Shown: in pieces, positions 32,777 through 40,435 of the stretch
How positions within the stretch are numbered: position 1 is the stretch's first letter
Layout of the letters: each line of letters begins with the position of its first letter
Assembly: GCA_902791165.1 (NCBI GenBank)
Contig: CADAVB010000034.1
Span: forward strand, 1-54,867
From: an uncultured Bacteroidia bacterium
Lineage (GTDB): Bacteria > Bacteroidota > Bacteroidia > Bacteroidales > F082
Length of the DNA stretch: 54,867 nt
Direction: 5' to 3'
Notes under the pieces: model-generated
What the model was told of the DNA's origin: nothing
Database searches by the model: none
What the model saw: the letters and a program-made list of their open reading frames with translations, nothing else
Position numbers and translations under genes: made by a program

Positions 32777-33411
32777 TTATCTTTTTGTGCAAACTATTTG
32801 ATTTTTGTATTTCAGGTTGATTGTTTTCCAATGTCTTGACGCTTCTTTAGTGATTTGTTGTTTCATGAAAGCCTCCAGCCTACGCAGCTTGTCGTCGAGT
32901 TGGGTGGTGTCGCCGAGGATAATCTGGGCATCCAGGCCACGGGCGGAGATTTCGAACTCATTTTGGCTGTTGCAGTGGATCTGCCCGATGCAGCTTCGCA
33001 TGAAGGTGTTGCGCTCGATGGCGTTATTGACTTGCATGGCGTTGATGATGTTGCGGTCGGCCTCGAGGGTGTCGCAAAGCTGGTGTCCCGCTTCGTTTCC
33101 AAAATGGAAATTGCCGTTGGCAATGAGCAGATGGGGCGTATAACCTTTGGAGGGCGGCAAAACGATGCCTTCTTTGGTAACATAAACTGAGCGACCGTGA
33201 CAGTGCCAATCATGGCACCGCCGCAGATGTTATGGACTTCGGCCAGCACCTCGCTCACTTTCACAAAGCCGCTGTCGGCATCGCGCTCAATGTTGAGATT
33301 GACGGATTTCACCGGCGTTTTAAGGTAGCTTTCGCGGGCTGCGATGAACAAGGCCACCAGCCCAGCCGCTGTTGCCAACCATAACAATATGCTCAATATC
33401 TTTTTTACCAT
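32777..33411 (-). pseudogene. ftsQ: Cell division protein FtsQ, broken by internal deletion and frameshift
   Basis: The first frame (start 33411) gives a membrane helix ILLWLATAAGLVALFIA and the start of the POTRA domain, GFVKVSEVLAEVHNICGGAMIGT. It then loses the family pattern at about 33190. In another frame GRSVYVTKEGIVLPPSKGYTP resumes the family sequence and continues normally to INLKYKNQIVCTKR at 32777. About 45-50 residues that should lie between (second half of POTRA, KHPxVxxAEVY and the QRxPILRV strand) are missing, and the remaining parts are in different frames. FtsQ links early and late division proteins and is essential in most bacteria. Overlaps the murC end by seven bases. Confidence 0.8.
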
Positions 33412-34707: not shown

Positions 34708-35847
34708 TTATTGGTTTGCAGGAGGGCAGACACGTGGGGCTGCCCCTACCAAACAACTATCAACTATTACATTAACAATGTCATCGGCGGCGTTCGGGCG
34801 GGCGAACTTGCCGATGTTGGCTTTCATTTTCTCCTGTTTTTCGCCGTCGGCAACTAAAGCCAACAGCGCGGGAATCAGCTCGGTTTCCGTTTCGGCGTTG
34901 CGCACCATCATTGCGGCTTCGGCCTCGACGAGTTGTTGAGCGTTCTTGGTTTGATGGTCTTCGGCTGCGGTGGGCAGCGGCACGAAGATGACGGGCTTTT
35001 GCACCAAGGCCAATTCCGAAATCGACATGGCACCGGCTCGCGAAACGACCACATCGGCCACGCTGTAGGCCAAGTCCATGCGGTCGATGAATACGGTGGG
35101 CTTCACCTTGTCTTCAATGCCCAAGGCTTTCACTTCTTCGTTGGCTTGGTCGAAGTAACTCTTTCCTGTCTGCCAAATGAGCTGCATTTCGCTGTCTTTG
35201 AAGGTTTTGAGTTGTGCACTGATACCTTTGTTGATGCCCAAGGCGCCTTGGCTTCCGCCAACCAATAGCGCGACAGGCTTCTCGGGATCCAAATTGAAAT
35301 ATTCCGCAGCCTCGGCGCGTGTGCCCGTGGCGGCGATGTTGGCCCTCAACGGATTGCCCGTGAGGTGTATTTTTTCTTTCGGGAACCATTGTTCCATGTG
35401 GTCGTATGCCACGCAAATGGCTTTGGCTTTGCGTCCCACATTACGGTTGGTTTTTCCGGGGTAAGAGTTCTGCTCCTGAATAACCGTTGGGATGTGCAAG
35501 TAGTTGGCAGCCATTAAGGTAGGTCCACTGGCGAAGCCGCCCACACCGATAACCACGTCGGGTTTGAAGCGTTTTAGGATGCCTATGGCGCGATTGATGC
35601 TGTCAATGAGTTTGATGGGCAAGCTGAGCGAGCGGAGGTCTTTGGTCATCCCGCTAATCCAAAGTCCTTCAATGGGATAGCCTGCTTTGGGCACACGTTC
35701 CATCTCCATGCGACCTTTGGCCCCAATGAAGAGGATGTCGGCCTCGGGCAACCTGCGCTTCAAGGCATCTGCGATGGCGATGGCGGGAAAGATATGGCCG
35801 CCCGTGCCGCCGCCGCTAATCACGACTTTCGGGTTCTCTTTCATCAC
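34708..35847 (-). CDS. murG: UDP-GlcNAc:lipid I N-acetylglucosaminyltransferase MurG
   Basis: Converts lipid I to lipid II on the inner membrane face. 379 residues with the glycine-rich acceptor loop ISGGGTGGHIFPAIAIADAL, EQNSYPGKTNRNVG, the donor site LLVGGSQGALGIN and VSRAGAMSISELAL, QLVEAEAA. The last 17 codons (VDSCLVGAAPRVCPPANQ) are the translation of a heptamer pair and a palindromic repeat and look like an acquired tail. It starts 32 bp inside ftsW, indicating tight coupling. Confidence 0.96.
   Translation of the reverse strand: MMKENPKVVISGGGTGGHIFPAIAIADALKRRLPEADILFIGAKGRMEMERVPKAGYPIEGLWISGMTKDLRSLSLPIKLIDSINRAIGILKRFKPDVVIGVGGFASGPTLMAANYLHIPTVIQEQNSYPGKTNRNVGRKAKAICVAYDHMEQWFPKEKIHLTGNPLRANIAATGTRAEAAEYFNLDPEKPVALLVGGSQGALGINKGISAQLKTFKDSEMQLIWQTGKSYFDQANEEVKALGIEDKVKPTVFIDRMDLAYSVADVVVSRAGAMSISELALVQKPVIFVPLPTAAEDHQTKNAQQLVEAEAAMMVRNAETETELIPALLALVADGEKQEKMKANIGKFARPNAADDIVNVIVDSCLVGAAPRVCPPANQ
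34711..34767. repeat. Palindromic element plus heptamer pair at the murG 3' end
   Basis: GGGCAG (34724-34729) pairs with CTGCCC (34740-34745), and TTGGT (34711-34715) pairs with ACCAA (34748-34752), giving a hairpin with an internal loop. Two copies of CAACTAT (34754-34767) follow on the plus strand. The whole element is translated as the murG C-terminus and ends one base before its stop codon. Confidence 0.75.
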
Positions 35848-37138
35848 TGTATTCGCTTGCTTCGTTATAGTTTTCCGTTATATTGACATCGGCTTGTTCG
35901 GCCGCTTGTTGTTCTTGTTCGGTTTCCTCGTCCATGTTGCGCGTCACGCTGAGAATCATGCCGATGATGAATCCTGTGGCCATCATCGAGGTTCCGCCCA
36001 TGCTGACGAAGGGCAGCGGTTGTCCCGTGACGGGCAGCAGCCCAATCGAAACGCCCATGTTGATTGTGGCTTGCACGATGATCAAGAAGCCCAATCCAAA
36101 GGCCATGAAGGCGCCGAAGGTGAGTGGCCGTTTGATGACGATGCGGATGACTCTCGTGAATAGGATGACATAGAGGAGGAGTACGATGACAGCGCCCACG
36201 ATGCCGTATTCTTCCACGATGATAGCGTAAATGAAATCGGAGTAGGGATGGGGCAAGAAGTTGCGCTGTTCGCTCTTTCCTGGACCTTTGCCGAACACCG
36301 AACTGGTGGCCACGGCAATCTTGGCATAGGTTTGCTGGTAATGGTGATCGTCGAAGGGGTCAAAGTCCTCGTCGCGACTGGCGCCCATGGCACTCAGTCG
36401 GTTAGACCAGGTTTTGATACGGTTTTGTTTGGGAATATATTTGATGGCTTCGCCGCCGTTTTCTATGCTGGCAATGCTGGCTTTTTCAGCTCTGCGGTTG
36501 CCAATCTCGGTTTTGGCAGCATCGAAAAGGAGATAAAAGCCAACCAAGGCGACGAAAATACCCATGATGGCCAAAAGGTGAATGAAACGTACACGTCCGA
36601 TGAAAAGCAATACCATGCAAACGAGCACGAGAATGGCCGCTGTGGAAAGGTTTTCGGGGAAGATGAGCCCTGCCGTCGCAACGATTGGTAAAACCAACTT
36701 TATAGCTATTTGTTTGAAGCTGCGCAGCGAGTCGCCCATGATGACCAATTGGCGTGAGAGATAAGTAATCAGGATAATTTTGGCCACTTCGCTCGGCTGG
36801 AACGAAATGCCGAACAGATTGATGGCGCGGTTGGCGGCGTTGATGTTGCGGCCGAAAATCAGGGTGTAAAACAACAAGGCCAAGCATGGCACGAGCAGGA
36901 ACCATGCAAATTTGGCAAAACGCCGATAGTCAATCTTGTAGGCGACAAACATCATGGCATATCCGACGAGCAGCGTGCCCGAGTGCTTCATTAGCAAACG
37001 GCCTGTGCTACCGCCGTACTTGTTGAACACGAGGGCACTGGTAGCACTATACACAACGATGAGCGAGGTGATGCCCAACAGCAGTGCCACAATCCAAATG
37101 ACCTTGTCGCCTTTCACTATTTTGTTCAAGCCATTCAT
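35816..37138 (-). CDS. ftsW: Lipid II polymerase / cell division protein FtsW
   Basis: SEDS-family septal peptidoglycan polymerase, 440 residues with about ten membrane segments. Motifs: ISFQPSEVAKIILITYLSRQL, FPENLSTAAIL, HPYSDFIYAIIVEEYG and PLPFVSMGGTSMMATG. A long extracytoplasmic loop (about residues 215-285) and an acidic cytoplasmic tail are typical of the phylum. Its start overlaps the truncated murD by four bases and its end overlaps murG. Confidence 0.96.
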   Translation of the reverse strand: MNGLNKIVKGDKVIWIVALLLGITSLIVVYSATSALVFNKYGGSTGRLLMKHSGTLLVGYAMMFVAYKIDYRRFAKFAWFLLVPCLALLFYTLIFGRNINAANRAINLFGISFQPSEVAKIILITYLSRQLVIMGDSLRSFKQIAIKLVLPIVATAGLIFPENLSTAAILVLVCMVLLFIGRVRFIHLLAIMGIFVALVGFYLLFDAAKTEIGNRRAEKASIASIENGGEAIKYIPKQNRIKTWSNRLSAMGASRDEDFDPFDDHHYQQTYAKIAVATSSVFGKGPGKSEQRNFLPHPYSDFIYAIIVEEYGIVGAVIVLLLYVILFTRVIRIVIKRPLTFGAFMAFGLGFLIIVQATINMGVSIGLLPVTGQPLPFVSMGGTSMMATGFIIGMILSVTRNMDEETEQEQQAAEQADVNITENYNEASEYSDEREPESRD

Positions 37139-37689
37139 TCTCCAAGTTTTTTCACGGATGCGATGTATTGGTCGCCGCGTTCTTCGTTGCTTGTGCTGCC
37201 TTTTGCGGCGCGGCAGCCAGGCGAAAACAACACCACGTCGTTTTCCTTCGCCAATTGGGAAGCGATGTAAACGGCGGTCTCGATGCTCTCGGCATCATAA
37301 ATCAGTTTGACGTCGCTCTTGAAAGTGGAGCGCAGGTGACGGCTGTCGTTGCCGAGGCAAATGAGTGCTCTCACATTCTTGCGGGCAGCAGGCTTCAGTT
37401 CGCTAAAGTCGGCTCTGTGGTCGTCGCAGCCTGCAATCCACACCACAGGATTGACGATGTTCTCGAAGGTGAACCAAGTGGCGTTCACGTTCTCCGCCTT
37501 CGAGTCGTCGTAATACATCACGCCATCAACGGTGGCCACATAGCTTTGGCGATGCCCCACCATCTGGATGCCGCCCAGACTCTGTTTGATGCTTTCTTTT
37601 CTAATGTTCAAAATACTTGATGGTATGCCCTCCGCCAGGGTATGGGGCTGTTTCAGTCTTGTGTTGGTTAGTTCTTCCAAGTAAGTCAT
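37135..37689 (-). CDS. murD: Truncated MurD: isolated C-terminal Mur ligase domain with eroded motifs
   Basis: 184 residues in the exact place of murD (between mraY and ftsW, ATGA overlap with ftsW). Homology begins at LAEGIPSSILNIRKESIKQSL and covers only the last domain of a protein normally near 445 residues. The UDP-binding domain and the ATP-binding GKTT domain are gone. Even the remaining domain has changed at family hallmarks: DSKAEN where DSKATN is usual, WIAGCDDHRAD instead of GGxDKGND, and FSPGCRAAKGSTSNEERG instead of SPACASFDLFxxYEDRG. The frame is nevertheless open and coupled. Such a protein cannot be a D-glutamate ligase. It is either a decaying remnant, with a full murD elsewhere, or a domain kept for another role. 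Confidence 0.8.
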   Translation of the reverse strand: MTYLEELTNTRLKQPHTLAEGIPSSILNIRKESIKQSLGGIQMVGHRQSYVATVDGVMYYDDSKAENVNATWFTFENIVNPVVWIAGCDDHRADFSELKPAARKNVRALICLGNDSRHLRSTFKSDVKLIYDAESIETAVYIASQLAKENDVVLFSPGCRAAKGSTSNEERGDQYIASVKKLGE

Positions 37690-37700
37690 GACGCTATATT

Positions 37701-38978
37701 TTATCTGATTTTAAACGTAATTAGTGTAAATGCAGCCAAGAGGATGGTTACAATCCAAAAGCGGATGGTGATTTTTACCTCGTGGTGAACGGTGTTGTAG
37801 CCCTCGCCGTGTCCTTTGAAGGTGACGGTTGTGTTGGGATATTTTTCCTTGAACGAACTATAACTCGTTCTAAAGTGGTCGTGCAAGGGACCTTTCTTCC
37901 AGATTCTGTGTTTCTTGCCGCGCTTTAGGAACACCTTCACGTCCAAGTCGGAGAGGATTTCGAAGAGGAAAACGCCGCACAGCAAAGGCAGCAGCAACTC
38001 CTTGTGCATGATGATGGCCGACACCGCAATGATGCCACCGATGGTCAGGCTGCCCGTGTCGCCCATGAAAATTTGGGCGGGGAAGGAGTTGAACCACAAA
38101 AAGCCAATCAATGCGCCCACAAAAGCGGCCAAAAAGACCACCAACTCCTCGCTTCCAGGGATAAACATCAAGTTGAAGTGACTGGCTGTCACGGCGTTAC
38201 TAGAAATATAGGCCAAGGCCACCAAAGCGATGCCGATGATGGCCGAGTTGCCCGAAGCCATGCCGTCCATGCCATCGTTGAGGTTGGAACCATTGCTGAC
38301 GGCCGCCACCACAAACACGGTGAGCAACACAAAGAAAATCCATGCTAAATAGTACATCCACTTGGGACCGGCCCACTTGAACAAGTCGGCGTAGTTGAGG
38401 TTGTGGTTTTTCAGGAAGGGAATGGTGGTGCGCGTCGATTTCACGTCGGGGCTTTTCACCACGATTTCCTTGTTGTCCTCGATTTTCACCTGCACCGTTT
38501 CGTTGATATGCACGGCGGGACTGAAGCGTAACGTCAAACCGACGATAAGACCGAGCAGGATTTGACCGCCCAATTTTACCTTGGGTTTCAGGCCGTCCTT
38601 TTTCTTCTTGAAGGTCTTGATGTAGTCGTCGGCGAAACCTAAAATGCCAAGAATCAGCGTGGTGGCAATCATCAAAAGGGTGTAAACGCTATGCAATTTG
38701 CCGACCAACAGCACGGGAACCAGAATGGCCGTGATGATGATGACGCCGCCCATGGTGGGCACGCCAACTTTTTTGGTGTTGTACGGGTCGATAGATGCGT
38801 CGCGTTGGCTCTCAACGACTTTCTTGCGCTTCAGCAGGTTGATGAAGTAGCTGCCGAACCACACCGATACGATGAGTGCCAAAATAACTGCCATCGCCGC
38901 GCGGAAAGTGACGTAATTGAACACGCCCGCGCCCGGGAAATTGCACTTTTGCAGATAATTGAACAAGTAGTATAGCAT
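37701..38978 (-). CDS. mraY: Phospho-N-acetylmuramoyl-pentapeptide transferase MraY
   Basis: Makes lipid I by transferring phospho-MurNAc-pentapeptide to undecaprenyl phosphate. 425 residues, about ten membrane segments. Motifs include GGVIIITAIL, the Asp pair GFADDYIKTFKKKKDGL, the catalytic NLNDGMDGMASG and FMGDTGSLTIGG, and the histidine-containing HDHF block near the C-terminus (KKGPLHDHFRTSY). An extracytoplasmic insert of about 60 residues after the fourth helix is typical of Bacteroidetes. TGATG overlap with murE upstream; 11 bp to the truncated murD. Confidence 0.97.
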   Translation of the reverse strand: MLYYLFNYLQKCNFPGAGVFNYVTFRAAMAVILALIVSVWFGSYFINLLKRKKVVESQRDASIDPYNTKKVGVPTMGGVIIITAILVPVLLVGKLHSVYTLLMIATTLILGILGFADDYIKTFKKKKDGLKPKVKLGGQILLGLIVGLTLRFSPAVHINETVQVKIEDNKEIVVKSPDVKSTRTTIPFLKNHNLNYADLFKWAGPKWMYYLAWIFFVLLTVFVVAAVSNGSNLNDGMDGMASGNSAIIGIALVALAYISSNAVTASHFNLMFIPGSEELVVFLAAFVGALIGFLWFNSFPAQIFMGDTGSLTIGGIIAVSAIIMHKELLLPLLCGVFLFEILSDLDVKVFLKRGKKHRIWKKGPLHDHFRTSYSSFKEKYPNTTVTFKGHGEGYNTVHHEVKITIRFWIVTILLAAFTLITFKIR

Positions 38979-40435
38979 CAGTTGGCCTCCTTAAATGCTT
39001 CCGACAACACTTCTTTGTCGTCGAAATAGTTCTTTATTCCGTTGATTTCCTGATAGTTTTCGTGTCCCTTTCCTGCCACGAGGATGATGTCGCCTTTTTT
39101 GGCCAAGGCCACGGCGGTGCGGATGGCCTCGTGGCGATTGGTGATGGAAAGCACTTTGTGGCTGTCCTCGGATGTGATGCCGGCCTTCATTTGGCGGATG
39201 ATTTCATCGGGGTCTTCGTTGCGTGGGTTGTCGCTGGTGAGGATGACGCGGTCGCTGAGCTTGACGGCGACGGCAGCCATCTCGGGGCGCTTGGTGGTGT
39301 CGCGGTTGCCGCCGCATCCCACCACGGTGATAAGCGTTTCCTTGTGGCGGCGCACGTCGTTGATAGTGGTCAGCACGTTTTCCAAGGCGTCTGGCGTGTG
39401 GGCGTAATCGACGATGCCGACGATGCCGTTCTCGGAACGCACCATATCGAAGCGTCCGTTGGCGCCATGCAACTTGCTGATTTCCACCAGTAGTTCGTTT
39501 TTGTCAAACCCTAATGCCGAGGCTGCGCCATAAATGGCCAAAAGGTTGCTCGCATTGAAGCCGCCGACGAGTTGGGTGAACACCTCCACACCATTCACTT
39601 TCAGCAACATGCCGTCGAAGTGGCTCTCCATGACGACACCTTTGAAGTCGGCGTCGTGTTTTAGCGCGTAGCTGATCTTCTTGGCTCGCGTGTTTTGCAG
39701 CATCACCGCGCCGTTTTTGTCGTCAAGGTTGGTCAAGGCGAAGGCCGTGTCGGGCAGGTTGTCGAAGAATTTTTTCTTGGCATTGCGGTAGTTGGCCATC
39801 GTTTTGTGGTAGTCCAAGTGGTCATGGGTGAGGTTGGTGAAGATGCCGCCCGCGAAGTGCAGTCCCGCGATGCGGTCTTGGTCCACACTGTGCGAACTGA
39901 CCTCCATGAAGGCGTATTCGCAGCCACTTTCCACCATCTTTTGCAAGAGCGCGTTCAATTCAAGTGGGTCGGGGGTGGTATGCGTTGAAGGGATAACTTC
40001 GCGGCTGACGATGTTTTCAATGGTGGAGAGCAGTCCGCAGCTGTAGCCCGCGTCGGTGAAAAGCCTATATAATAAGGTGGCGATAGTGGTCTTGCCGTTA
40101 GTGCCGGTTACACCGACGAGTTTCAACTCTTTTGACGGATTGCCGAAGAAATTGGATGCCGCCACGCCGAGCACGTAGGCCGAGTTATCGACTTGGATAT
40201 AAGTCGTGTTGTCGGCACTTGTTTTGGGCATTTTCTCACAAACGATGGCTTTGGCACCTTGCGCGACAGCCTTGTCAATGTAGTCATGACCATCCACTTG
40301 GGTGCCTTTTATGGCAAAGAACAGGCTGTTTTCCCCAACTTTGCGTGAGTCAAAGGTCAAGTCAAGGATGTCGATGTCCTTGTTTCCTTCAATCTCTAGC
40401 AGATTGCAATTGACTAATATCTCTTTGAGTTTCAT
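38978..40435 (-). CDS. murE: UDP-MurNAc-L-Ala-D-Glu:meso-diaminopimelate ligase
   Basis: 485 residues with all three Mur domains: [22 protein letters not shown] loop [40 protein letters not shown] and C-terminal [26 protein letters not shown] carries the DNPR signature of diaminopimelate-adding enzymes, which predicts meso-DAP peptidoglycan. It is complete, in contrast to murD and murC in the same operon. Start overlaps the ftsI stop by four bases. Confidence 0.97.

Follow-up and report, generated by a model that had tools for sequence, protein, structure and literature searches.

The window analysed here is a stretch of 54,867 nucleotides from an uncultured gut bacterium of the order Bacteroidales (contig CADAVB010000034.1 of assembly GCA_902791165.1). 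In its dcw operon the place of murD, between mraY and ftsW, is taken by an open reading frame of only 184 residues, which we call murD-C. The features of the region are the following (all on the reverse strand; residue equivalents refer to E. coli MurD and are our assignments):

34708..35847 (-): murG, an open frame that overlaps the ftsW end
35816..37138 (-): ftsW, downstream neighbour of murD-C
37135..37138 (-): ATGA, an overlap shared by the stop of murD-C and the start of ftsW
37135..37689 (-): murD-C, 184-aa ORF holding the end of the MurD central domain and the entire C-terminal domain
37504..37506 (-): Asp 62 of murD-C, present in 42 of 42 short sequences; presumably E. coli D317
37549..37551 (-): Arg 47 of murD-C, present in 41 of 42 short sequences; presumably E. 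coli R302
37555..37689 (-): residues 1-45, MurD central-domain tail, in which the His-Asn..Asn of full-length MurD (the Asn residues presumably adenine-binding) is lost
37687..37689 (-): Met 1, start codon, sharing its alignment column with a near-invariant internal Met of full-length Bacteroidales MurD
37701..38978 (-): mraY, upstream neighbour of murD-C
38978..40435 (-): murE, intact

The murD-C frame is open, starts 11 bases past the mraY stop (37701) and runs into ftsW by the ATGA overlap, as the first-pass annotation had described. Its description of the product as the C-terminal part of MurD alone is also correct. The MurD profile TIGR01087 matches only at positions 288-440 of 441 (E 3.2e-31) and the score of 108.9 bits stays under the curated cut-off of 211.95 bits, whereas Pfam Mur_ligase_C (PF02875) is matched with 41.1 bits against a gathering score of 28.4. 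Solved MurD chains likewise align to murD-C over their C-terminal part only. Compared with the MurD ligase, murD-C therefore has the same operon place and homology to the last part of the profile, but it has no UDP-binding domain and no P-loop and keeps the central domain only as a tail. The catalytic Lys, Glu and His of the three-domain ligase are, like the ATP P-loop, located in the deleted part, and the adenine- and glutamate-binding residues are eroded. At the D-Glu site (T321, K348 and S415, which we take to be the E. coli numbering) the window protein has Glu, His and no SFDLF. The loss of hallmark motifs claimed earlier is thus uneven: SFDLF is gone and the GGxDKGND region has become GCDDHRAD, but DSKATN survives as DSKAEN. 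A new N-terminal extension was considered for the first 45 residues and rejected, as these align as the central-domain tail.

The neighbouring genes had all been said to look intact. This holds for murE and mraY, which score above the curated cut-offs; ftsW is a full-length profile match below its cut-off (242.7 against 337.5 bits) and murG is supported by its open frame and similarity only. Further along, at the ftsQ place between murC and ftsA (32777-33411, reverse strand), there are two overlapping short frames of 182 and 127 aa, as if ftsQ were frameshifted or shortened.

A second murD elsewhere in the genome had been proposed from the window, and one exists. The genome to which the contig belongs (98.7% complete) holds one full-length MurD at G000:C23:8377-9585, scoring 321.8 bits in the genome search and 325.5 bits as a protein. 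It overlaps an upstream ORF that matches the MurL model NF041275 with 272.3 bits (E 5.5e-81, profile positions 6-411 of 447). Because this model, named for Xanthomonadales, has a curated cut-off of 700 bits, we call the gene MurL-like. No glutamate racemase gene murI was found in this genome; a D-amino-acid transaminase is another source of D-Glu. As described in parts of PMC8788868, MurD2 of X. oryzae attaches L-Glu, which MurL then epimerises with ATP, and Glu197 and Arg358 of MurD2 (E. coli D182 and K348) set the preference for L-Glu. All 78 MurD2 loci that could be aligned (some genomes counted twice) have Glu at D182, Arg at K348 and Ile at K319. MurL and an over-cut-off MurI never occur together in 80 Bacteroidales genomes (58 with MurL, 17 with MurI), which were chosen rather than drawn at random: 9 bear the short gene, 16 are family relatives or contig-edge cases and 55 are top-scoring. 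The other five (G411, G479, G243, G448 and G337) have neither. Taken together, the MurL-like gene adjoining MurD2, the missing murI and the L-Glu residues suggest that a MurD2-MurL route, adding L-Glu and then epimerising it, probably took over from MurI-MurD, and that such a D-Glu bypass probably runs in this organism.

The short domain is present in 95 of 99 genomes of the genus and in 46 of the 46 good ones; the query matched 96, but G093 is not counted because its match is MurD2 only. The four genomes without it are 62-72% complete. All 19 loci from L119 to L137 show the gene order mraY-short-ftsW, and so do L009, L010 and L039. MurL is found in 93 of the 99 genomes (44 of the good ones), and murI over cut-off in none of the 99. 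Two good genomes with the short gene, G023 and G073, show neither MurL nor any full MurD, so the adjacent pair is probably absent from these bins as a whole. In the remaining 74 genomes of the family (15 genera) MurL occurs in 71 and murI over cut-off in none, with weak sub-threshold matches in 30. Here 66 of the 74 have a MurD match of E 1e-110 or better, a range in which the complete dcw gene scores. A normal murD at this site in relatives, which the first-pass annotation had named as refuting its observation, occurs only at a distance, in other genera of the family; the genus itself has none. One genome of genus g10 (G132) carries a short dcw gene, and dcw MurD pieces lie close to contig ends in G107 and G156. 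With the short query, no dcw MurD match is obtained in G129, G131, G138, G144 and G161. Among these, G131 and G144 are good genomes with MurL, in which dcw MurD is possibly lost entirely or hidden in an assembly gap; MurD-C may therefore not be indispensable.

Across the order, a profile of the short proteins was run on 393 genomes and matches 388, mostly through full-length MurD. Among the matches listed, at least nine genomes outside the family, from at least six families, have a short dcw murD (f110: G437, G495; f56: G322, G227; f12: G378; f24: G302; f6: G177, G288; f37: G208), so that a gene lacking the N-terminal domain and most of the central one is found in the murD place of this genus, of one g10 genome and of at least six other families. 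In f56 it sits on a contig of 5.26 Mb. MurL is present in nine of these nine genomes, and the MurD2 neighbour was read in seven (L324-L330). G221 and G271 were excluded since they are short only through a contig end; G177 was retained, as a stop lies upstream in frame, although its contig ends before mraY. All short proteins start at one alignment column, with Met.

The change between short and full-length genes requires 8 steps on a tree of the C-terminal domain and 7 on an FtsW tree, of which well-supported branches force at least 4 and at least 5, respectively. Because descent does not restore a domain once it is gone, these changes point to several independent losses; the reduced lineages counted here are a minimum. 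Both trees place the f110 short genes, with good support, next to full-length genes from f110; for f6 only the FtsW tree shows such a grouping, and for f12 both trees do, but without good support. For g1 and g10, which have long branches in both trees, there may have been one shared truncation or two. The spread of one truncated allele by transfer was rejected on the same counts of changes.

Purifying selection on the 184-residue frame is evident, with a dN/dS of about 0.2. For the 44 named loci of the genus the median is 0.238 and the maximum 0.48 (491 pairs with dS 0.1-1.5), and 20 disjoint pairs give 0.185. In a wider set that includes duplicate loci, the medians are 0.216 for the short gene, 0.19 for ftsW, 0.126 for murG, 0.115 for murE and 0.089 for mraY; murD-C is therefore constrained about as much as ftsW and less than the enzymes. 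A pseudogene would show broken frames or a dN/dS near 1, whereas all 94 extracted short ORFs are open. Ten positions are invariant across 49 diverse short sequences. In 64 distinct short sequences Glu is found at T321 in 79% and Lys at K319 in 20%, while K348 and SFDLF are nearly always gone; in this genus the glutamate site is thus eroded too, and the fold core is retained. The ten short sequences from outside the genus (nine from other families and G132) keep DSKAT in 10/10, Lys at K348 in 6/10 and SFDLF in 6/10, but the His before N268 is replaced in 10/10 and both Asn residues are left in only 2/10. The counts given above for Arg 47 and Asp 62 combine these ten with 32 genus sequences. Within f110, similarity of the C-terminal domain is 0.73 and 0.70 between short and full-length proteins and 0.68 between full-length ones. 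The corresponding dN/dS is 0.115 for short against full, 0.114 for full against full and 0.075 for the short pair, and we see no sign of relaxed selection on the f110 murD-C.

The start of the short proteins corresponds to a Met that full-length genes contain as well. Among full-length loci, all 66 from MurL-bearing groups have this internal Met, as do 20 of the 22 from MurL-less genomes (86 of 88 loci in total; the 88 encode 82 distinct proteins). The 66 include L209, whose genome (G116) gave no MurL match. L188 (G136:C182), with Leu at this column, was left out of the 66; this additional full-length MurD lies at a contig end, and its bin is 9% contaminated and has another dcw-type MurD. Of 78 MurD2 sequences, 1 has Met at this column; beyond the order, 10 of 36 MurDs do, mostly those of Gammaproteobacteria. 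All 66 loci keep K115, E157, H183, K198, N268, R302, D317, K319, T321, K348 and S415, and 65 keep D182 and N271.

According to parts of PMC6847099, Bacteroidetes lack Shine-Dalgarno sites, and A at -3, -6, -12 and -13 together with low structure aids initiation. Of 82 sequences, 59 have A at position -3 relative to the internal Met, and 59 have A at -12; at -6 the favourable A is mostly missing (A in 11, T in 60). For comparison, A at -3 is seen at 46 of 71 ftsW, 22 of 40 mraY and 13 of 21 murG starts, but at only 3 of 74 for a conserved Met 17 codons on. The A at -3 of the internal Met can also stem from amino-acid constraint. GC content is 0.42 in the whole gene but 0.255 over -20..-1, close to the values at the ftsW (0.252) and mraY (0.254) starts, and the mRNA around the internal Met falls on average in the most open 9% of windows. 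The Thr that follows is encoded by ACA in 56 of 66 cases, compared with 517 of 1720 elsewhere. Overall, the nucleotide context of this conserved in-frame Met resembles that of a start.

Synonymous positions show the same tendency. Third-position GC at the internal Met is the lowest of 439 windows in the MurL-bearing groups; in the MurL-less set, with 442 windows, those at the internal Met take second and third place, on a par with the true start. When 33 genomes representing 32 families are scanned, the window centred on the internal Met ranks first of 445, and none of 500 synonymous shuffles reaches it. As controls, mraY has its minimum at the true start and ftsW at its 3' end, where murG starts in the window (and by inference elsewhere). 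The murG start is not picked out with 14 sequences, the first columns at the ftsW start are too gappy to score, and the murE sequences are too few to scan. An internal promoter was rejected on the -7 motif only, which we take to be the Bacteroidales promoter motif: upstream of the internal Met it occurs once in 7380 bases, which is no enrichment over whole genes (28 in 112677). Our literature searches found no internal murD start and no stand-alone Mur C domain.

These results lead us to two connected proposals. MurD-C is probably a stand-alone protein, retained after MurD2-MurL had replaced MurI-MurD, which agrees with the second reading of the first-pass annotation (a single-domain protein kept in the operon) and is supported by the genus-wide presence, the dN/dS and the same unit in other families. 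With somewhat less assurance, we favour Bacteroidales murD being a two-product gene. It would encode the ligase and, from the internal Met, a non-catalytic MurD-C with a role in the wall or division, the second product being suggested by the nucleotide signals in full-length genes. With the ligase made dispensable by MurD2-MurL, 5' deletions sparing MurD-C would be tolerated, and repeatedly only MurD-C, from the same codon, would be kept. That the same MurD tail is kept in several separate lineages suggests that it has its own job. What this job is can be stated only tentatively: MurD-C might be a non-catalytic partner of MraY, FtsW, MurG or Mur ligases, with the ATGA overlap coupling its synthesis to that of FtsW. 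A binding or scaffold role is favoured because the ATP-binding residues are eroded while the fold core is kept, and partners in lipid II synthesis or division are suggested by the operon place. Most sampled MurL-bearing families retain the complete dcw ligase, and one possibility is that it could use recycled D-Glu.

Several other explanations have to be weighed. The first-pass annotation had offered decay under relaxed selection as one reading, murD being redundant through MurD2-MurL and its C-terminal piece not yet lost. In its favour, the ligand motifs are eroded within the genus, dN/dS (0.216) lies above that of mraY, murE and murG, and G131 and G144 may do without dcw MurD entirely. Nevertheless, neither frameshift nor stop is found in the 94 ORFs, dN/dS is well under 1 in 491 of 491 pairs, ten positions remain invariant in sequences this diverse, the f110 short pair is at 0.075 without a rise between short and full-length genes, and an identical C-terminal unit remains in separate lineages. 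Given the genus-wide presence, the invariant positions and the dN/dS we reject decay as the main reading, and as an explanation we consider it unlikely. Even less can be said for a deletion of the front of murD in the assembly or an artefact of binning. The window is indeed one contig of a 98-contig assembly, but the short gene occurs in nearly all genus genomes, on 44 named contigs of up to 332 kb from several projects (many from the same genomes as the G-numbered set) and on the 5.26 Mb contig of another family. These independent assemblies lead us to reject an assembly deletion, and the chance of an artefact is negligible.

The remaining two alternatives accept that the gene is retained. 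Its value might lie in translation, with the internal start and the short ORF passing ribosomes on to ftsW and murG and the protein hardly mattering. The ATGA overlap and the start-like signals would fit, but such a relay has no need of a conserved 140-residue fold, nor of W84, R47, D62, S156, P157 and other core residues in nearly all short proteins at a low dN/dS; we therefore give it little credit. Conversely, the protein might act in trans, either by supplying MurD2 or a different Mur ligase with a C-terminal domain or by sensing glutamate or a nucleotide. The almost invariant R47 and D62 and, outside the genus, the survival of DSKAT and partly of K348 and SFDLF are in line with this. However, MurD2 already has a complete C-terminal domain, the His before N268 and most of the Asn pairs are lost even outside the genus, and within it the glutamate site is gone, which makes this role improbable as well. 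A retained MurD-C stays our preferred reading.

Bacterial isoforms from internal translation starts are reportedly known, as in the Spa33 variants. As there, a C-terminal product would arise from an in-frame internal start; MurD-C differs in being part of a Mur ligase, in being deduced from sequence, and in that several lineages keep the isoform-like part only. If true, a much-studied cell-wall gene has a hidden second product whose role is separable from catalysis, and the natural deletion lineages isolate MurD-C.

The glutamate route resembles that of Xanthomonas as far as described in PMC8788868: a MurD2-type ligase next to a MurL-like gene, the L-Glu determinants and no murI found. Differences are that the organisms are Bacteroidales, that MurL reaches 272 of the 700 bits set for Xanthomonadales, and that here most sampled MurL families keep a complete dcw MurD while some lineages have MurD-C only. 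In the portions of the reviews considered here, MurL carriers are Gamma- and Alphaproteobacteria and rare actinobacteria (2021), with the addition of weak orthologues in a fungus, cyanobacteria and an amoeba (2018; PMC5808125). These portions do not name Bacteroidota as carriers, the stem 'bacteroid' being absent from that of PMC5808125, and our literature searches on a missing murI in Bacteroidetes found nothing. The bypass would thus be placed in an order of major gut bacteria, and the clean exclusion of MurL and MurI in our sample would aid annotation.

Some minor observations concern the ligases themselves. The P-loop of MurD2 reads GTKGKS in 78 of 78 loci (for example L001:1390-2724), with Lys replacing the usual Asn. 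At G000:C20:40931-41704 (L007) a Mur ligase match lies within an open frame of 1015 aa, possibly a fused MurF-alanine racemase. Seven loci (L146, L151, L157, L160, L166, L225 and L273) have MurL and MurD2 in a single open frame of 662-954 aa and are apparent fusions.
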